A stretch of 64,000 bases of DNA, taken from positions 1 to 64,000 of the forward strand of contig SCSE01000079.1 of the NCBI GenBank assembly GCA_004298015.1, written 5' to 3'. Positions 2,575-27,525 of the stretch are shown one piece after another. A model generated the notes under the pieces. That model did not search any database. It saw only the letters and a program-made list of their open reading frames with translations, and was not told the DNA's origin. How positions within the stretch are numbered: position 1 is the first letter of the stretch; every line of letters begins with the position of its first letter. This stretch comes from Rhodanobacter sp. GTDB taxonomy: Bacteria; Pseudomonadota; Gammaproteobacteria; Xanthomonadales; Rhodanobacteraceae. A program made the translations under genes and the position numbers.

Positions 2575-3060
2575 ATGGGCATCACCCGCGATAGCAAAGG
2601 CAGCTACAAGCTCACAGGCAAGACCACTGAACAAGACGTTCTCGCAGCAGCCGAAGGCATCCTAAAAGCCAAAGTCGAACGGCTCGGAAACGTCAGCAAC
2701 CCGAGAGACGCAACTGACTTCCTCCGCATGAGGCTGGGCGCACTGCTCCACGAAGAATTCCACATCCTCTGGCTGGACAATCGCCACCGAATTCTCAGTT
2801 GCCAGAAGCTCTTTACCGGCACCATTGACGGCGCAAGTGTCCATCTTCGAGAGACCGTCAGGGCAGCGCTGACCGTCAACGCCGCAGCCTGCATCTTGAG
2901 CCACAATCATCCGAGCGGTGTTGCAGAACCTTCAGCAGCAGACCGAGCCATCACCAAGGAGCTGGTGGAAGCCCTGAAGCTGGTCGGCGTGCGGGTCTTG
3001 GACCACATCGTTGTCAGCGCTGGTGAATGCGTGAGCATGGCCGGGAGGGGGCTGATGTGA
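2575..3060 (+). CDS. RadC family JAB-domain protein
   Basis: 'ACILSHNHPSGVAEPSAADRAITKEL...VLDHIVV' JAMM/RadC signature. Confidence 0.93.
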   Translation: MGITRDSKGSYKLTGKTTEQDVLAAAEGILKAKVERLGNVSNPRDATDFLRMRLGALLHEEFHILWLDNRHRILSCQKLFTGTIDGASVHLRETVRAALTVNAAACILSHNHPSGVAEPSAADRAITKELVEALKLVGVRVLDHIVVSAGECVSMAGRGLM

Positions 3061-3222: not shown

Positions 3223-4560
3223 ATGAGCAGCCAAGAACTGAACATCGATGAGTTGGAGCTTGACCTCAAAAATCCCAGATTTGACGATCTGACCAGTCAA
3301 CGGGATGCGCTTGAGAAGATTGTACTTTCTCAAGGAAGCAAGCTAGTCAATCTCGCCGAAGACATTGTGGCCAACGGCATGAGCCCCGCTCACCGCATGT
3401 TGGTCATGAAGGCGCCGGGTCGAGGGAACAAAGGCTTCACCGTCATGGATGGCAACAGGCGTCTGACTGCACTTCGTGTCTTGGCCAATCCATCAGTCCT
3501 TGATGGCATGTCCGGGGTTGGCGACATCACTGCGCAAAAATTGCGCAAGCTCGCGAAAGATTTTGACCTGAACCTCATCCAGCCCTTGGATGTGTTCGTC
3601 TGCAAGAACGAGGCTGAGGCTCGCCATTGGATTGAGGCTATCCATACCGGTGAGAACGACGGTCGTGGTGTTGTGGGTTGGGATGGTATTGCCACTGCCC
3701 GCTACCGTGGGAAGAACACCTCACTGAAGGTGCTCGAATTCGTCAAAGCGGCAGGAAAGTTGGATGCCTCAGAGCTGGCGGCACTGGAGCGGTTCCCCAT
3801 CACGAACCTTGACCGCCTCCTGGGCACACCTGAGATTCGTGAAAAATTGGGTCTGACTTTTGAAGATGGCGACATTCTGTCTGACCTTCCTCAAGCCGAA
3901 CTGCTGCGGCCTTTGAAGAAGGTGGTCTCTGACCTTGCGTCAAAAAAGATCACGGTCGCCAAGCTCAAGAGCAAAGACGAAAGGCTTGCTTACATCGATT
4001 CGCTCGGGTCGGCGTTGCCAGACTTGGGGAAACGGACGGGGGCGCCAGAGGCGCTGGACCGCCTCGCTGCGAATGCTCAAGCAAAGAGTCACGCAAAAGC
4101 TTTCAGTGACGGTAAGAGCCGTTCACTGCTTGATAGAAAGGCACTCATTCCAGGTCAGGCTCAGGCGACGCTGAACATCAACGACCACAAGTTGCAGCAG
4201 ATATGCAAAGAGCTGAGGAAGTTGCCGCTGGATACCTACCCTGTGGCCGTGGCAGCATCCTTTCGAGTTTTTCTTGAGCTCTCGCTCGACCACTACGCGA
4301 CTGAAAAGAAGGTTCCGCAATACAACGCTGACTTGCACTTGAAGAAGAAGGTTGAGGCCGTGGCTGCACACTTGCAAGCCAACGGAGTAGCCAAGCGGGA
4401 TCTTCAAGCGTTCCGTGCGTTGGCAAGCAACCCGAATGCGGCCCTTTGTATTGACCGCCTCCATGGCGTTATCCACAGCAAGTACACCTTGCCAACCGCA
4501 AACGAACTCCGAACAGGATGGTCCGAAGTGCAGGTGGCCTTTACTAAGATTTGGTCTTAA
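3223..4560 (+). CDS. ParB/Srx N-terminal-domain protein with long C-terminal region
   Basis: 'FTVMDGNRRLTALRVL' ParB-like box in N-terminus; stop 3 nt before the next gene. Confidence 0.8.
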   Translation: MSSQELNIDELELDLKNPRFDDLTSQRDALEKIVLSQGSKLVNLAEDIVANGMSPAHRMLVMKAPGRGNKGFTVMDGNRRLTALRVLANPSVLDGMSGVGDITAQKLRKLAKDFDLNLIQPLDVFVCKNEAEARHWIEAIHTGENDGRGVVGWDGIATARYRGKNTSLKVLEFVKAAGKLDASELAALERFPITNLDRLLGTPEIREKLGLTFEDGDILSDLPQAELLRPLKKVVSDLASKKITVAKLKSKDERLAYIDSLGSALPDLGKRTGAPEALDRLAANAQAKSHAKAFSDGKSRSLLDRKALIPGQAQATLNINDHKLQQICKELRKLPLDTYPVAVAASFRVFLELSLDHYATEKKVPQYNADLHLKKKVEAVAAHLQANGVAKRDLQAFRALASNPNAALCIDRLHGVIHSKYTLPTANELRTGWSEVQVAFTKIWS

Positions 4561-4563
4561 AAC

Positions 4564-5445
4564 ATGAAGAAAGAGCCTCGACCGCCAACCTTCTACACGC
4601 CACTTAGATACCCAGGTGGCAAGGGAAAGTTGGTTCCTTACGTCAAGAAAATATTTGAACAGAACAACTTGGTGGATGGGGTCTATGTCGAACCCTACGC
4701 GGGAGGAGCCGCCGTGGCGATGGAGCTCCTTCTTCACGAGTACGTGAGGAAGGTCTACATCAACGATATCAGTGATGGAGTGGCGGCATTCTGGCGTTCG
4801 GTGTTGGACGATACGGATGCACTGTGCGCCAAGATTTCCGGCGCAAAGCTAAATATGAAGGAATGGCATAAGCAGAAGGCCATCCAACGTGAGCCAGAAG
4901 AACACGATGATCTGACGCTCGGGTTCTCGACCTTCTTTCTCAACCGAACCAACCGCTCAGGAATTTTGGGTGCTGGCGTCATCGGGGGGAAAGAGCAGTT
5001 GGGCAAGTGGAAGCTTGATGCGCGGTTCAACAAGCCTGACCTGATTCAACGCATCCAAGTGATCGCCAGAATTCGCGACAGGATTGAGTTCTCTCAACTT
5101 GACGCTGTTGCCTTCATCGACTCGGTGGCGCCGCGTCTTCCTGCAAAGAGCCTGATCTATCTTGATCCGCCATATTACGTTAAAGGCAGCGACCTCTATC
5201 TGCATCATTATCAGCACGATGACCATGTAAAAATTGCCAAGCGGGTTGCGCGGCTGAAGAGTAAAAATTGGATAGTTTCTTACGACAATGCTGACGAAAT
5301 TCATGGCATGTATAGCCAGTTTCGAAGCATCGTCTACGGTTTAAGTTACAGCGCCCAGGACCGATACAAGGGCGCTGAGGTGATGTTTTTCTCGGATGTT
5401 TTGGGCATCCCCGAGATTGCAGCGCCAATGCATTTAGTAGCGTAG
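4564..5445 (+). CDS. D12-class N6-adenine DNA methyltransferase
   Basis: 'TPLRYPGGKGKL', 'YVEPYAGGAAVAMELL' (SAM motif) and 'LIYLDPPYYVKGSDLY' (DPPY catalytic motif). Confidence 0.94.
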   Translation: MKKEPRPPTFYTPLRYPGGKGKLVPYVKKIFEQNNLVDGVYVEPYAGGAAVAMELLLHEYVRKVYINDISDGVAAFWRSVLDDTDALCAKISGAKLNMKEWHKQKAIQREPEEHDDLTLGFSTFFLNRTNRSGILGAGVIGGKEQLGKWKLDARFNKPDLIQRIQVIARIRDRIEFSQLDAVAFIDSVAPRLPAKSLIYLDPPYYVKGSDLYLHHYQHDDHVKIAKRVARLKSKNWIVSYDNADEIHGMYSQFRSIVYGLSYSAQDRYKGAEVMFFSDVLGIPEIAAPMHLVA

Positions 5446-5520
5446 TTGGCTGATGGGAGTGGGCGAAGTGGTGTATATCGTAATTATTAGTCAAGGACAT
5501 GTAATCAGTAGAGTGTGGCA

Positions 5521-6252
5521 ATGAGTGCCATTTTTGTGATTATTGTCGTACTATTTGGTTGTGCACTATTTGCTTTTTTGATTTTTGATTGGGTTAAGTG
5601 TAAAAATAGCTTTTTAGAAAAAGAAATAGAAGGGCTTAGAGAGCGTCTGCATGTTCTTGAGACGACATCAGCCGCGCCGGAAAATGCATCGCGTCAAGCC
5701 GAGATAGCTAAGCGGTCCGGGCTTGCCCTATGGCTAGTCCTGGTAATAGTTGCTTCGATGATTGGAGCAATTTATGTCTATAGTCAATTCAGCACTGATA
5801 AGGCAGGAGCTATATCGGACTTCCTTGCTTATATCTTTCCATGTGTGGCAGGGGTTGCTGCGGGTCTTGGACTTTACCGACGTAACAGTAGTCCAGAGTT
5901 ATGGTTTTGGGCTTCTGGTATATTAATTATTGCAGGTATTGTGAGCTATTTTATTTCAAGGTCAGATACCATAATGGTCTGGTGGGCATCGTACGGTTTT
6001 ATCGGTGTGCTGATGGGAAGCACCCTGCTTTTTATTGATATCAGAAAGAGGGGTTGGCTTGGATTGAGATTTTTCATCTCCATTAATCGCATGTTTCGAT
6101 TCACATTGTTTTTGGGTTCGATCGCGGTATTGATTCTCGCGCTTGTCTACATCCAGCTTAATAAGCCAGGGGCTACTTGGAGAACTCTTGGACCACACAC
6201 CAGGCAAGCAGCAGAAGCAGTCCTGTGGATAGGCAAAGAATTGAAATGGTGA
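5521..6252 (+). CDS. Multi-pass membrane protein of unknown function
   Basis: N-terminal TM, short coiled-coil-like segment, then about five further hydrophobic segments; visibly AT-richer than neighbours. Confidence 0.75.
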   Translation: MSAIFVIIVVLFGCALFAFLIFDWVKCKNSFLEKEIEGLRERLHVLETTSAAPENASRQAEIAKRSGLALWLVLVIVASMIGAIYVYSQFSTDKAGAISDFLAYIFPCVAGVAAGLGLYRRNSSPELWFWASGILIIAGIVSYFISRSDTIMVWWASYGFIGVLMGSTLLFIDIRKRGWLGLRFFISINRMFRFTLFLGSIAVLILALVYIQLNKPGATWRTLGPHTRQAAEAVLWIGKELKW

Positions 6253-6461: not shown

Positions 6462-6494
6462 AATGCCGCCATTTCTCATGGCGGCATTTTTCTT
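6462..6494 (+). terminator. Intrinsic terminator
   Basis: AATGCCGCCAT-TTCTC-ATGGCGGCATT perfect 11-bp stem followed by TTTCTTG. Confidence 0.75.
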
Positions 6495-6659: not shown

Positions 6660-8450
6660 ATGAATACACCCAGCAATATCACGTCTGCCTCTGCAACCGA
6701 AGCCAAGCACGCCCGACCCCATCTTGAAACTCATACACGCGGCCAGAATCATTCGGCCGTTGCCGGTGCCGCTTACCGGCTCGGCATAAAGTTGTATGAC
6801 GAGCGCGCAGGGGTCTGGCACGACTTTCGAAAACGCGCTCTTGGGGAGGAGATTGTTTTGGCCCTCACGGTCGCGCCCCAAGGTGCACCAAGTTGGGCAA
6901 CTGACCCGGCCCAACTTTGGAACCGAGTTGAGCTTGCCGAAAAACGAAAAGACGCTCAGCTAGCACGCGACTATCGCATCCCCATCCCCTTCGGCCTCAG
7001 TGACCAGCATGCAAGCGCGATGGCTGAGGAGATGGCCAGGTACATCTCCCGTGAGCTGCACACCCCTGTTTCCATCGGTCTCCACCGTGATGCCGACCGG
7101 GATGCCCTGGGAGTGGTCAAGCCCAACGAAAAGCAGGGGTTCCACGCGCATCTCTATTTCCCAACCAGGCGCCTTTCTGACCTCAAAGGTGGCGATGGAG
7201 AAGATGACGGCGGGGAAGGCGGCTCGGGGTTTGGTGCTAAGTTGTCGATGCTTTCCAATAAAAGGACCAGCATCATTTTTGTTGAGGCCCTGAATGCCAA
7301 ATGGGCGGCCCTAGCCAACCAGTACACATCAAGTGAGGGGTTGCCTGCTGACTACGACCACCGCAGCTACAAGCGGCTGGGATTGGGCATCCAGCCACAA
7401 CCCACGGTGGGTCGACACGTGTCAGCCATGGAGCGGAAAGGGATTGTGACCAGGAAGGGGGACAATCTTCGGGAAGCTCTGGTCATGGCCAAGGTTTTCG
7501 AGAAGGCCCACCAAAGCGCCATAGAAGCCCAGAGGATGCAGGCGAAGGCCGATGTCATCCGAGAGGCAGGGATGACGGCTAGGACTCAAACTCAAAGAAA
7601 ATCAAAAAAGCCCGGTGAGACGCGTGGCTTGAGAATGACCCCCATGCATCGGGGTGGGAACTCGCGACCAACCATCTCGCGACCAACCTTCGCGAGCCTG
7701 CCGTTTCAACGGTCCATAGTCTCAATGGTCGTGGCCTCAACACCTGCACCCACCAACTTTGAAGAACGACGCAATTTCGACCGGGCGTTGGCTCTGATTT
7801 CCATCATCGAGCGGGCCATTGCAACGTGTAACAGCTTGCTGCGACTCATGGAAAAGTACCTCCGAGAAATCGAGCTTGCCAAGGCAAGTAGGCAGGAAGC
7901 CGCGTTCCAGGTTGATCAGTCACGCAGGTTGCGTGAGGGTGCAAAGCTCAAAGCAAAAAAATGGGTCGCCGAGCACCCTTGGCAAATTAAACTGGCAACG
8001 GTGCCGGGGTTGGGTGGCGCACGTGACACCCATCAAGGGCTAATCGCGGCCATCCAGTTTCACGACCGCCACGTTCAGGAACTCAAACAAACGGTCGGTG
8101 TGCATCAAGCCTCAGTCGTTGAGATGGGTCGCACCGTTGCCGAACTCAACGCCAAGAGAACCGCAGCCTTGGGTGAGCTTCGGCATGCAGCCACAAACCT
8201 CAAAAAGCACCCGGTGGTTTTCGAGAAATTTTTAGCCGCGTTGCAGCCTGACGAACGGATTTTGGTCAAGCAACAACTTGAAAAATTCACCATGCAGCAC
8301 CAACCGAGTGGCAGCTTGTCCCCGGTTGATGCTCCCACTTCTTCACCTTCGGAATCCTCGGATTCATCGACGTGGACCGATACCTCAAGTTCAGCGGAGG
8401 AAAATGTTCTGAAGCCCAGTCCGTTCAGTCCCCGAGGTCAATCGAGGTAA
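6660..8450 (+). CDS. MobA/MobL family relaxase
   Basis: 'HSAVAGAAYRLGIKLYDE..', 'NRVELAEKRKDAQLARDYRIPIP', 'GFHAHLYFPTRRL' motifs of MobA/MobL relaxases. Confidence 0.9.
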   Translation: MNTPSNITSASATEAKHARPHLETHTRGQNHSAVAGAAYRLGIKLYDERAGVWHDFRKRALGEEIVLALTVAPQGAPSWATDPAQLWNRVELAEKRKDAQLARDYRIPIPFGLSDQHASAMAEEMARYISRELHTPVSIGLHRDADRDALGVVKPNEKQGFHAHLYFPTRRLSDLKGGDGEDDGGEGGSGFGAKLSMLSNKRTSIIFVEALNAKWAALANQYTSSEGLPADYDHRSYKRLGLGIQPQPTVGRHVSAMERKGIVTRKGDNLREALVMAKVFEKAHQSAIEAQRMQAKADVIREAGMTARTQTQRKSKKPGETRGLRMTPMHRGGNSRPTISRPTFASLPFQRSIVSMVVASTPAPTNFEERRNFDRALALISIIERAIATCNSLLRLMEKYLREIELAKASRQEAAFQVDQSRRLREGAKLKAKKWVAEHPWQIKLATVPGLGGARDTHQGLIAAIQFHDRHVQELKQTVGVHQASVVEMGRTVAELNAKRTAALGELRHAATNLKKHPVVFEKFLAALQPDERILVKQQLEKFTMQHQPSGSLSPVDAPTSSPSESSDSSTWTDTSSSAEENVLKPSPFSPRGQSR

Positions 8451-9180
8451 TGGATGGACCGCTGCCGCTTGAATAGTTTGAGAGATCCATTTGCATATGG
8501 GTAACCGTTGCATTCAATTGCTTTGAATTCTTATCAATGCCGTCGATGCGGAAATAGATTTTCCGCTTCAGGCCAAGACTCGTTTTGCTCCTGAGTGACT
8601 CAATTTGTTGAGCCATCGCAGAATCTGTGATTTTAATCGAGCAAAATTCAGGCGTTTGATAAATAACGCTTTGGACACCCGGCTGTCCATCAATGGCCCC
8701 TTGGTTGCCACCATTGAAGGGCTTGCAGTTGTTGGTTGTAAATTGACTCGTTTGAAAATCATAAGGACCAAAGTCACCAAGCGAAACAGGCGTGCCGGCC
8801 ACAAAAAATTTGAGGCTGGCAAAGTCCTTCAATTTGGCATTGATTTTGGGTAGCTCAGTCTTGGCCAGTTCCCGCTTTTTGAAAACGTCCTGTTCTGCGT
8901 CATAGCCAGGAACAAAGATTTTCAATTTTTGCTCATCAGTCAAGGAATTGCCGGCCCGTGCATAATAGGCATAAGCCACCCATAGGGGCTCATCTTCAAC
9001 GGGTTTATAAGCATTCAAGGGTGCAGTTGGTCCCGATTGTGGGCCGTCAGATGCAACCGCACTCGATGGGTCAGACTGGGAAGCACTTGAATTTCCATCG
9101 GAGGTTTGACCACCAGGGGAATGCCCACAACCGGCCAAGGCAAGCGTCATGACTGAAACCAACAAAATATTATATTTCAC
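8425..9180 (-). CDS. Hypothetical lipoprotein
   Basis: Signal peptide with lipobox 'LALAGC'. Confidence 0.75.
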   Translation of the reverse strand: MKYNILLVSVMTLALAGCGHSPGGQTSDGNSSASQSDPSSAVASDGPQSGPTAPLNAYKPVEDEPLWVAYAYYARAGNSLTDEQKLKIFVPGYDAEQDVFKKRELAKTELPKINAKLKDFASLKFFVAGTPVSLGDFGPYDFQTSQFTTNNCKPFNGGNQGAIDGQPGVQSVIYQTPEFCSIKITDSAMAQQIESLRSKTSLGLKRKIYFRIDGIDKNSKQLNATVTHMQMDLSNYSSGSGPSITSIDLGD

Positions 9181-9196
9181 ATTTTTCCCCTTGAAA

Positions 9197-9973
9197 TTAA
9201 TTGCCGAATCCCGTTTTCTGACAGACCGCCTTCATGAGTGAATAAGAAGTGGTTTCATCCATGCCACCGGCCATAACATGGGCACGACCTCCTTCTTCTA
9301 CCTGCAAAACAAACGAGTTATCTGACAGCCAATCTTCACGCTTTTGCCTGACCTTATAACCATGATGTTCAAACGCATTACCCAAAATGCTTGCTGCATC
9401 ACTCGCATAAGAAATCACCTGTGTAGCACTCCCGGCATAGGTTTGGCAGGCCCGAATGCGGTCAATTTGATCTACGTTAATGGTGGTCAATTGGCCTTGG
9501 TCGGTGCGATAATTAATATTGGACTCGGAGACATAAAACCGACCATCCCGAACACATGGACGAGGGTCATGGTTGAGTTTTTTAACTCCAAGATAACCCA
9601 CTAGTAACCCGAGGGCAGGAGACCACAGGAGATAGGCCACGTTGTTGGTTGTATAGGTGACGAGCATCATCACGAAGCCCACCACCAAGGCCACGACACA
9701 CCCCAAGAGAACAGGCAAAGCAACCGCCCGATTTCGGGTGGCTGGGATCACGGAAACAATCAACTGGTCCTGGGTGTCGTGGTCGATGGAGTAGGAGCTT
9801 TTTGGCTGACTGGGTGCAGGTGTGGGCAGCAAGCTTTCCTTCGGGGCCGACCGACCTTTGGCCAGGACCAAGGCGCCGGCAACCATGAGGAGAACTGACA
9901 ACGGCCACATTCCGACCATGTAGAACACGATTCCAGCAAGAAGCAGTGCGACGGCGACGAACTTGCGATTCAT
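9197..9973 (-). CDS. Hypothetical membrane protein
   Basis: Start at MNRKFVAVALLLAGIVFYMVG; two pairs of TM helices and a soluble C-terminus; follows next to the lipoprotein. Confidence 0.7.
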   Translation of the reverse strand: MNRKFVAVALLLAGIVFYMVGMWPLSVLLMVAGALVLAKGRSAPKESLLPTPAPSQPKSSYSIDHDTQDQLIVSVIPATRNRAVALPVLLGCVVALVVGFVMMLVTYTTNNVAYLLWSPALGLLVGYLGVKKLNHDPRPCVRDGRFYVSESNINYRTDQGQLTTINVDQIDRIRACQTYAGSATQVISYASDAASILGNAFEHHGYKVRQKREDWLSDNSFVLQVEEGGRAHVMAGGMDETTSYSLMKAVCQKTGFGN

Positions 9974-10084
9974 TCCTGTTTCCCCTGTGGATAGTCGATG
10001 CCAGACATTTGATGATCGCATATGTGAAGCTAGCATAAATAGGGCTCGCATATAGCGTTCTCGCCACCTAGCGGGTGGTGAGCA

Positions 10085-10384
10085 GTGGCGCGAAAAAGTA
10101 TCTACAGGCCTGAACACAGAATTTTTGCGGAATTGCTCCGCGATGTTCGGTTAGGTGCAGAACTGACCCAAGAGCAACTGGCCGCTGCGCTCGATGTGGA
10201 TCAAGCGTTTGTGAGTGAATCCGAACGTGGCCGACGACGTTTGGATACCGTCCAAGTCCGGGATTGGTGCGTGGCTTGCAAGACGGATTTGGTGACGGTC
10301 AGCAAGACTTTTGAGACCCGGCTCAAAGACCCTAGATACCAGGTTCCCAGAGAGCCTGATGGACGCAAGCGCGAAGCCCGTTAA
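10085..10384 (+). CDS. XRE family HTH regulator
   Basis: 'LLRDVRLGAELTQEQLAAALDVDQAFVSESERGRRRLDTVQ' canonical Xre HTH. Confidence 0.88.
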   Translation: MARKSIYRPEHRIFAELLRDVRLGAELTQEQLAAALDVDQAFVSESERGRRRLDTVQVRDWCVACKTDLVTVSKTFETRLKDPRYQVPREPDGRKREAR

Positions 10385-10485: not shown

Positions 10486-11913
10486 TCATCCTGAGTTGGA
10501 TGACGCCCTCACTGCTTCGATGTCTGCCTTGGCTTTCGTGACCATCCGCTGACGCTTGCCATCAGTGACTTTGGTGCGCTCCCCACGCTTGGCTTTGCTG
10601 TGGGTCGTCAAGTAGTGCTTGTCGAACCGTCCTGGGACATGTGGCCGAATGGGGAGGGCAGGGAAGACAATCGTCTCAATCCATTCCTTGCACTCGGGAA
10701 CATCAGCCGGATCCACATAGTGCTTGTTGAGCACCGTCTTTTCATCAGAGTGGCCCATCATCCGTGTGATGACGCGGGTCAGCACACCAGACTTGGATGC
10801 CAGCGTCGAAAAGGTGTGGCGAAGACACCCAATGGACTTTTGCTTGTCCGTGATGCCGCAGCGATCCCGAAGGTGCGTTTTATTCAGTGCGATGCTCAGG
10901 TTCCCAGCCGGGCCATTGGGACCCCACGTTTGCCCTGGAAAGAGATGGTCAAAGCCTTGGCTCCGGACCTCTTTCACGTAGTCGAGGAAACCCAGTTCAA
11001 TGAGCTTGCTGTGGATAGGAATATAGCGGGCTGAGCTTGGCGTTTTGACATTCTGCCCCAGGCGGTCGCCTGAAATATTGAAGCACCAGATGCCTTGGAC
11101 TTGAACAATGTCGTCCACGTACAGCTGTGCTCCCTCATTTAAGCGCATGCCGGAATACAGGTCGATGATGGGAATCCAGTGCTTGGCCGGTGTGTCCATC
11201 TTGGTTTCGAACTTCGGGTCAAAAATTTTCGTGAGGTCCTCGTCCGTGAGGGACACCTTGGTCTTTCGCTTCGGGGTGTAGTCGGCGATGTTGACCATGC
11301 AGGTCGGGTCTTCCGTGATGAAGCGGGAATCCATCGCCCAATGCACGAAACTGCGCAGATTCTTGATGTGCTTGCCTTGTGTGGTCCGGGCAATCGTCGG
11401 CATTCCTTCGCGTTTGGATTTTTCGATGAGGGCGCGGTAACTCATGCCCGGCCCGAGCTTTGACGGCGCACGCGGTGGGAGATGCGCCAAGGCGTCGAGG
11501 AAGGTGTCGATATCGTCGGGTTCAAGCTGCTTGAGGGGCTTGTCGTTGAGGATGTTCGCAAGAAGGTTCAGGGTGAAGCAGTTGTCCGAGTGTGTCGAGT
11601 CAATCACGTTGCTCCGCCTGCTCTTATTGAGGTAGAGCTCAACGTGGTAGTGGAGCGGCTTGTCCAGGATGGTAGAAAGGGGCTCTATTTCTCCGGCCGG
11701 TACTAAAGGGCTGCTTGGAATTGGTGGAGGTTCACTTGACGCATAGGCATGGATGGGCGACTGGGGAAAATGAATCCCGCTGTCCTTCAAGGCCATCAGG
11801 GCATCTTGAAGATGTGCCTTACTGTGGCCGTGAACGCGATAGCCGCCCGGCAGGTCAATGATGCAAGGATGGAAAAAGTTCTGGGGTGAGTTGAGTGGGT
11901 GTTGCGAATACAT
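10486..11913 (-). CDS. Second tyrosine-type site-specific recombinase
   Basis: 'LYSGMRLNEGAQLYVDDI', 'CLRHTFSTLA', 'MMGHSDEKTVLNKHYVD'; same family as 184-1428. Confidence 0.9.
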   Translation of the reverse strand: MYSQHPLNSPQNFFHPCIIDLPGGYRVHGHSKAHLQDALMALKDSGIHFPQSPIHAYASSEPPPIPSSPLVPAGEIEPLSTILDKPLHYHVELYLNKSRRSNVIDSTHSDNCFTLNLLANILNDKPLKQLEPDDIDTFLDALAHLPPRAPSKLGPGMSYRALIEKSKREGMPTIARTTQGKHIKNLRSFVHWAMDSRFITEDPTCMVNIADYTPKRKTKVSLTDEDLTKIFDPKFETKMDTPAKHWIPIIDLYSGMRLNEGAQLYVDDIVQVQGIWCFNISGDRLGQNVKTPSSARYIPIHSKLIELGFLDYVKEVRSQGFDHLFPGQTWGPNGPAGNLSIALNKTHLRDRCGITDKQKSIGCLRHTFSTLASKSGVLTRVITRMMGHSDEKTVLNKHYVDPADVPECKEWIETIVFPALPIRPHVPGRFDKHYLTTHSKAKRGERTKVTDGKRQRMVTKAKADIEAVRASSNSG

Positions 11914-25809: not shown

Positions 25810-27525
25810 TCAGGCAAGCCCCGGGTTGTTCTTTTCACCCACGAGTTTGGGCGTGTTGAGCTTGGGCGGCGCCACGGTCTGATGCGAGCTGAGGTAGTCG
25901 GCAACCACATCCCAGACGGGCTCTCCGGTGGCGTTGGGGGCGACCGGCGCCCAGCCTGCCACCTTGTATTTTTTCTCGGCATCGATCGGTTTGCCACCGA
26001 GCTGCATATCGGTAATACGTTTGCCGATACGTGCGTCCGGATTGCAGGTATAGGCGAGGCCCCCGACGCGAACCATGTCGCCGCCTTGCTGATAATAGGG
26101 GTCGGGATTGAACAGGTTGTCGCCGACATCCTCCAGAATGGCCTTGATCTGGGTACCGGTAAGCTCACTGACCGTAACTGCGGGGTAGGTGATAGCCGTC
26201 TGATCCATCAAGCGCTCGTGGGTAATCGTTTCGCCGGGCAGCAGTGTCGTGCCCCAGCGGAATCCGGGGGAGAACGCGATTTCCGCGTCTTTCACCTGCA
26301 TCAATGCGTCGAGTATCACCTGATCGAAGCTACCGTTGAAGTTGCCCCGCCGGTACAGCAGACCTTCGCTTACGGCATGCTGTTTGGCCAGTCTGGCTTC
26401 ATAGGGTTGACGGTGTCGCGTGATCAAGGCCTGCATCGCCGGATCCGGGGCCAGCAAGTTGGAGAAGACGGGAAGCAGGCGGTAGCGGGCGTCGCGAAGT
26501 TTGCCGTTGCGCACGTCGAGATCGAGCACGCCGACGAACTTGCCGTTGCTGCCGGCATTGGTGACCAGCGTATGTCCACCGCTGTTTTTGACCGACACGG
26601 GATGCGGTACGCCATCGTGGGTATGACCGCCGAGAATGGCGTCGAGCCCGGTGACCTGGGAGGCAAGCTTCAGGTCGCAGTCCATGCCATTGTGGGACAG
26701 CAGCACAACCACCGCAGCGCCGGCCTTGCGCACCTTGTCGATGACCTGCTGCAGGTGATCCTGCTGGATACCGAACGACCAGCCTGCGACGAAATGGGCC
26801 GGGTGCGCGATCGGGGTGTAGGGAAACGCCTGACCTATCACCGCCACATCGACGCCGTTGACGTGGCGCATCGAGTAGTCGGGGAACACCGGATCACCGA
26901 AGTCGGCCGTACGGATGTTCTGCGCCACAAAGTCGATCTTGCCCTTGAACGGACCGTCGACGACTTCCTTGACCCGATCCGCACCGTAGGTGAATTCCCA
27001 GTGCCCTGTCATCACGTCGACGCCCAGCTCCAATTGGGCATCGATCATGTCCTGGCCCTTGGTCCACAGAGACGTGGCGGACCCCTGCCAGGTGTCGCCG
27101 CCATCGAGCAGCAACGCTCCCGGGCGACTGGAACGAAGGCGCTTTATCAAGGTGGCCACATGGGCGTACCCGCCGACCTTGCCATAACGCTGGGAGGCTT
27201 CGACATAATCCAGACAGGTCAATGCGTGTGCTTCGCGGGTTCCAGGCTTGATGCCGTAGAACTTGAGCAAGTGCTCGCCAACCAGGTGCGGCGGCCGGCC
27301 GAATGCCGGTCCGACGCCGATGTTGGACGAGGGCTCACGGAAATGGATGGGCATCAACTGCGCATGACTGTCGGTCATGTGCAGCAGGCTGACATTGCCG
27401 AATGCCGGCAGATCGTAAAGTGCCTCGCCGTTGCTGGCAGCAAGCGCCCTGGAAGAAGCCAGCGGCAGGCCTGCCACAGCTGCAGCTGCCATCAGCTGCA
27501 TGAATTCGCGGCGACTCATGCTCAT
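25810..27525 (-). CDS. soxB: Thiosulfohydrolase SoxB
   Basis: Tat-like 'SRREFMQL', 'LLHMTDSHAQLMPIHFREPS', 'LLLDGGDTWQGSATSLWTKGQDM', 'NGMDCDLKLASQVTGLDAILGGHTHD'. Confidence 0.96.
   Translation of the reverse strand: MSMSRREFMQLMAAAAVAGLPLASSRALAASNGEALYDLPAFGNVSLLHMTDSHAQLMPIHFREPSSNIGVGPAFGRPPHLVGEHLLKFYGIKPGTREAHALTCLDYVEASQRYGKVGGYAHVATLIKRLRSSRPGALLLDGGDTWQGSATSLWTKGQDMIDAQLELGVDVMTGHWEFTYGADRVKEVVDGPFKGKIDFVAQNIRTADFGDPVFPDYSMRHVNGVDVAVIGQAFPYTPIAHPAHFVAGWSFGIQQDHLQQVIDKVRKAGAAVVVLLSHNGMDCDLKLASQVTGLDAILGGHTHDGVPHPVSVKNSGGHTLVTNAGSNGKFVGVLDLDVRNGKLRDARYRLLPVFSNLLAPDPAMQALITRHRQPYEARLAKQHAVSEGLLYRRGNFNGSFDQVILDALMQVKDAEIAFSPGFRWGTTLLPGETITHERLMDQTAITYPAVTVSELTGTQIKAILEDVGDNLFNPDPYYQQGGDMVRVGGLAYTCNPDARIGKRITDMQLGGKPIDAEKKYKVAGWAPVAPNATGEPVWDVVADYLSSHQTVAPPKLNTPKLVGEKNNPGLA

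Follow-up and report, generated by a model that had tools for sequence, protein, structure and literature searches.

A two-gene PD-lambda-5 defense system is very probably encoded at positions 3223 to 4560 and 4564 to 5445 of the analyzed window (64,000 nucleotides of a Rhodanobacter sp. contig), with the membrane gene that follows lying outside it; judging from sequence, we put the probability of this reading at about 0.9. The ParB-like protein encoded by the first gene corresponded to the PADLOC model PD-Lambda-5_A (PDLC03998, E=1.4e-135), with residues 1 to 444 of 445 aligned to positions 1 to 464 of the 466 of the model, and the methylase encoded by the second gene corresponded to PD-Lambda-5_B (PDLC04018, E=3.4e-123) and also to the PADLOC MTase_II model (E=6e-105). 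Three features expected of a PD-lambda-5 member, namely a full-length A component, a B methylase, and a B gene adjacent to and downstream of the A gene, were all found. Scans of Pfam and NCBIfam gave a family name to the methylase alone of the pair (D12 class). PD-lambda-5 was isolated in E. coli by functional phage selection and shown to confer broad phage protection (Vassallo 2022, PMC9519451), the cloning having been done in a host without the mrr region (PMC9519451). The original prediction had joined the pair and the membrane gene into one candidate defense or island-maintenance module; its anti-phage reading is supported, since the pair is assigned to PD-lambda-5, which was shown experimentally to protect E. 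coli. By its sequence matches, the window pair is a divergent new member of an already known, experimentally established defense system, so that the ParB-like/methylase pair now belongs to a named and tested system and a false three-gene defense candidate is removed. The features concerned are the following.

184 to 1428, + strand: tyrosine integrase 1 (PF00589, E=3.8e-16).
2575 to 3060, + strand: RadC-like JAB-domain protein (PF04002, E=3.2e-40).
3223 to 4560, + strand: putative PD-lambda-5 A component, ParB/Srx fold, 445 aa (PADLOC PDLC03998; alignments of 13 and 56 homologues; AF2).
4174 to 4557, + strand: C-terminal domain of the A component, weakly suggested to be a HEPN-like bundle (conservation, AF2, Foldseek).
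4564 to 5445, + strand: putative PD-lambda-5 B component, predicted D12-class N6-adenine DNA methyltransferase, 293 aa (PADLOC PDLC04018; Pfam PF02086; PDB 7m6b).
5521 to 6252, + strand: multi-pass membrane protein, a neighbor only (homologues beside relaxase or integrase elsewhere, none beside other PD-lambda-5 loci).
6462 to 6488, + strand: terminator-like hairpin with T-run ahead of the relaxase gene (sequence; hairpins at the equivalent site in L184, L186, and L207).
6660 to 8450, + strand: MobA/MobL (MobQ-like) relaxase (PF03389, E=1.1e-32).
10486 to 11913, - strand: tyrosine integrase 2 (PF00589, E=3.6e-9).

All three open reading frames of the original prediction were located where it had placed them, and the spacing of 3 nt that it gave for the first two was confirmed. 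The ParB-like gene starts with the ATG at 3223 and stops at 4560, and the membrane gene, which begins at the ATG at 5521 or the GTG at 5515, follows the methylase gene after a gap of 75 nt. The reading frames of the pair are not chance ones, because both proteins have full-length families and a pair 73% (A) and 76% (B) identical occurs in a Burkholderiaceae MAG (L002), the nearest relative. The genome contains one copy of the window pair. The GC content was 0.54 and 0.51 for the ParB-like and methylase genes, respectively, and 0.436 for the membrane gene, compared with 0.63 in the window's chromosomal portion; the membrane gene, which had been described as AT-richer and multi-pass, indeed had the lowest GC of the set and encoded five hydrophobic segments. 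The strong terminator said to close the unit was present as a hairpin with an 11-bp stem followed by TTTTT (6462 to 6488), although the closure is not tight: the hairpin lies 210 nt past the membrane gene stop and ends the region ∼170 nt ahead of the relaxase start. An oriT reading of this hairpin was considered and rejected. Different hairpins with T-runs stand at the equivalent place in three related loci (L184, L186, and L207), and the element was kept as a terminator because these relatives keep T-run hairpins but not the GTGCG found after the hairpin in the window.

The association of the A and B genes is widely conserved. IMG/VR contains 79 loci for the A component, which form 67 clusters at 90% identity, 65 of which could be evaluated (contig continues); the methylase gene was directly downstream of the A gene in all 65, on the same strand in 44 and tail-to-tail in 21. 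Translational coupling of the two genes, proposed from their close spacing, is possible in the window, but the system does not depend on it, because about a third of the clusters are tail-to-tail. At most of the loci from genomes, plasmids, and phages, too, the methylase adjoins the ParB-like gene, and many homologues of the pair sit on prophages, plasmids, and islands. Searching viral contigs with the window A protein alone returned no match because of the divergence of A, whereas a profile search succeeded. Four A homologues (L018, L087, L092, and L093) had no adjacent PD-Lambda-5_B methylase; given these, A may in some cases work by itself or stay silent. At L093, a 298-aa protein encoded upstream of the A homologue matches HEPN families weakly.

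A relative of the pair from viral contigs has copies of >99% identity in 22 of 5,426 complete E. coli genomes, where its two genes stand as a unit flanked by the replication endonuclease and portal genes of a P2-like prophage, a site described as a defense hotspot in PMC9519451. This E. coli pair gave the same two top PADLOC models as the window pair, with which it shares 25% identity in A and 53% in B; it is a prophage relative taken from viral contigs and is not equated with the copy tested in PMC9519451. For the window A protein, at ∼25% identity, we infer the same activity as in its E. coli relatives. The window pair resembles PD-lambda-5 (Vassallo 2022, PMC9519451) in having both components at full length with A ahead of B, intact methylase motifs, and carriage on a mobile element. 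It differs from the E. coli relative in having a shorter linker ahead of the C-terminal domain of A and in residing on a relaxase-bearing integrative island rather than a P2-like prophage.

The claim of a three-gene module did not hold up, as the pair occurs throughout without the membrane gene at ∼100 other PD-lambda-5 loci, an outcome that the original prediction had itself named as counting against the module. Neither BLAST nor a family profile revealed a homologue of the membrane gene beside any of these loci, and no membrane gene of any kind recurred after the pair in genome, plasmid, or phage loci. At the nearest relative, the gene that comes after the pair instead encodes a DUF1016-domain protein and lies on the other strand (8240 to 8722 of L002, -), tail-to-tail with the pair, and there is no membrane gene. 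The recurrence of the three-gene set that had been proposed as a check was therefore not seen; relatives of the membrane gene instead track with the island relaxase or integrase. A survey of 234 genomes belonging to the same family turned up such relatives in 8, all of which carry a MobA/MobL relaxase, whose homologues occur in 39 of the 234. In six of the eight (the window's own genome, G103, G106, G154, G160, and G167) the membrane gene shares a strand with the relaxase and precedes it by at most ∼2 kb; the G197 copy has an integrase as its neighbor. The relaxase association is partly circular, because the membrane-protein profile included one sequence (G103) drawn from a relaxase locus; G160, G167, G197, G154, G106, and G170 were found via the membrane protein itself. 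No PD-lambda-5 occurred in the portions of these islands that were examined. Because its relatives adjoin a MobA/MobL relaxase or an integrase in islands without PD-lambda-5, the membrane protein is associated with the island backbone or mobilization and is not part of PD-lambda-5. A genuine three-gene defense or exclusion module, with the membrane protein as an effector fired by a ParB/methylase sensor, would accord with the contiguous, same-strand arrangement, the shared downstream hairpin, and the separation of methylase and membrane genes by so few nucleotides; yet it is scarcely credible in view of the lack of a membrane-gene homologue beside other PD-lambda-5 loci, the different gene at the nearest relative, the tracking of the membrane family with relaxase and integrase, and the fall in GC from the methylase to the membrane gene. 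No family match for the membrane protein was obtained in the scanned family databases, and searches of plasmid, viral, and PDB sequences with it gave no match.

The D12 class that had been proposed for the methylase is borne out by Pfam (PF02086, E=1.7e-18), and PDB entry 7m6b was matched with E=8.7e-31. The enzyme should methylate adenine, a prediction made because its catalytic motifs PLRYPGGK, EPYAGGA, and DPPYY (DPPY) are intact and show little or no variation across 34 homologues. It shares the character of a stand-alone adenine methylase with type II restriction-modification but differs in that its partner is a ParB/Srx-fold protein and no restriction endonuclease is seen. In agreement with the original prediction, the island showed no gene for a restriction endonuclease, and no endonuclease family was matched among the open reading frames scanned around the methylase.

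The AF2 model of the A protein (pLDDT 91.8) comprises an N-terminal ParB-like NTP-binding fold with a D76-G-N-R-R80 motif, a helical middle, and a C-terminal six-helix domain. The ParB/Srx label given earlier agrees with the fold and with the GNRR motif, which resembles ParB box II and is kept in 56 of 56 A homologues; the Pfam ParB model stayed below threshold. The best PDB fold match in Foldseek was Noc of the ParB family (7ol9, E=5e-3), and a PDB sequence search with the A profile gave a marginal ParB-nuclease match only. ParB-fold proteins bind CTP, ATP, or GTP via the box II arginine (fold survey, PMC12704722). The likeness to ParB/Noc of ParABS lies in this N-terminal fold, whereas the A protein has a different C-terminal domain, Pfam found no helix-turn-helix (HTH) domain in it, and no ParA-type match was present among ten scanned open reading frames (those of the pair, the membrane gene, and seven neighbors); the central HTH domain and neighboring ParA expected of a canonical ParB were not seen. 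These absences also bear on the idea that the pair serves the island as an epigenetic maintenance or partition module and not as a defense system. A ParB-type fold with a methylase on a mobile element would suit such a role, as would the many homologues carried by prophages, plasmids, and islands, but the lack of HTH and ParA matches, the position of the E. coli relative in the P2 defense hotspot, and the protection that the system gives against phage make it very unlikely. For epigenetic control of the element, which the original prediction had weighed equally with defense, the analysis yielded no positive evidence. In comparison with GmrSD/DUF262 type IV restriction, the putative PD-lambda-5 A protein has a similar ParB/Srx-like N-terminal fold, and a few A homologues weakly match GmrSD_N; it differs in having GNRR rather than a DGQQR-type motif and in having a methylase partner. 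No DUF1524 HNH domain (GmrD) was found in the A protein or in the families of the 56 homologues.

The original prediction had singled out the ParB C terminus for a structure check, which by AF2 and Foldseek returned a definite domain of less definite kinship. The last 128 residues of A (∼318 to 445) form a separate domain of six helices (pLDDT 96.8), and HEPN/HepT structures recur among its Foldseek matches at TM scores of 0.5 to 0.57, the top ones including 5yep, 6m6u, 7bxo, 2q00, and 4nqf, although all at E>1. Across 56 divergent A sequences, R348 is invariant and E330, E/D352, and H418 are nearly so. With respect to the Rx4-6H motif, R348 and H418 are kept in A, but no conserved R stands 4 to 6 residues ahead of the H. 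The modeled fold weakly suggests that the domain is a HEPN-like helical bundle.

As a tentative mechanism, for which we would give somewhat less than an even chance, PD-lambda-5 may rely on methylation-based self-recognition with the A protein as both sensor and effector. The methylase would mark host (self) DNA, and A would be an NTP-switch DNA-binding protein held inactive on or by modified DNA. Unmodified phage DNA entering the cell, or modification lost during infection, would release A, which would then stop the infection either through the HEPN-like domain at its C terminus or through nuclease activity residing in the ParB fold. That A is specifically a ParB-type NTP-switch DNA sensor fused to a HEPN-like ribonuclease and licensed by the methylase marks is a speculative proposal, decidedly short of even odds; if true, DNA methylation would here control an RNA-cutting toxin through a ParB-type switch, making this an abortive system. 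Alternatively, still within PD-lambda-5, the ParB/Srx fold might itself be a nuclease or NTP-depleting effector acting by direct restriction, with the C-terminal domain serving oligomerization or DNA contact only. We regard this as a serious contender at slightly under an even chance: nuclease and NTPase activities are reported for the ParB/Srx superfamily in work cited in PMC10853773 and PMC12839542, and the HEPN fold E values are weak, whereas the near-invariance of the four C-terminal residues is what an active site would show. Conserved C-terminal residues behind a ParB-type switch offer a concrete hypothesis for the unexplained mechanism of PD-lambda-5.

In the window, the island reads in the order integrase 1, RadC-like gene, PD-lambda-5, membrane gene, relaxase, lipoprotein, membrane protein, HTH gene, and integrase 2, and the PD-lambda-5 pair is cargo of this mobilizable integrative island. 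PD-lambda-5 thus travels not only on prophages but also on an integrative island that carries a relaxase and two integrases. The two integrases are different tyrosine integrases that face inwards from opposite ends with the MobQ-like relaxase between them; no clear att repeats were found flanking the island. Several genomes of the family have comparable two-integrase/relaxase layouts (L212, L214, L215, and L217). The L215 island runs integrase, cargo, membrane gene, relaxase, membrane protein, and integrase, with L214 and L212 similar, and its cargo gene (9150 to 10124, -) matches the PADLOC candidate defense protein PDC-S64 (E=5e-43), which suggests that defense cargo is accommodated in the slot separating integrase 1 from the relaxase. 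The HTH gene of the window (10085 to 10384) is HipB/control-protein-like, has a close homologue beside integrase 2 in L217 (E=3e-50), and is possibly an island regulator. Beyond the island, soxB-like DNA occurs at about 26047 to 26360, which points to a sulfur-oxidizing bacterium as the apparent source of the chromosomal DNA in the window.
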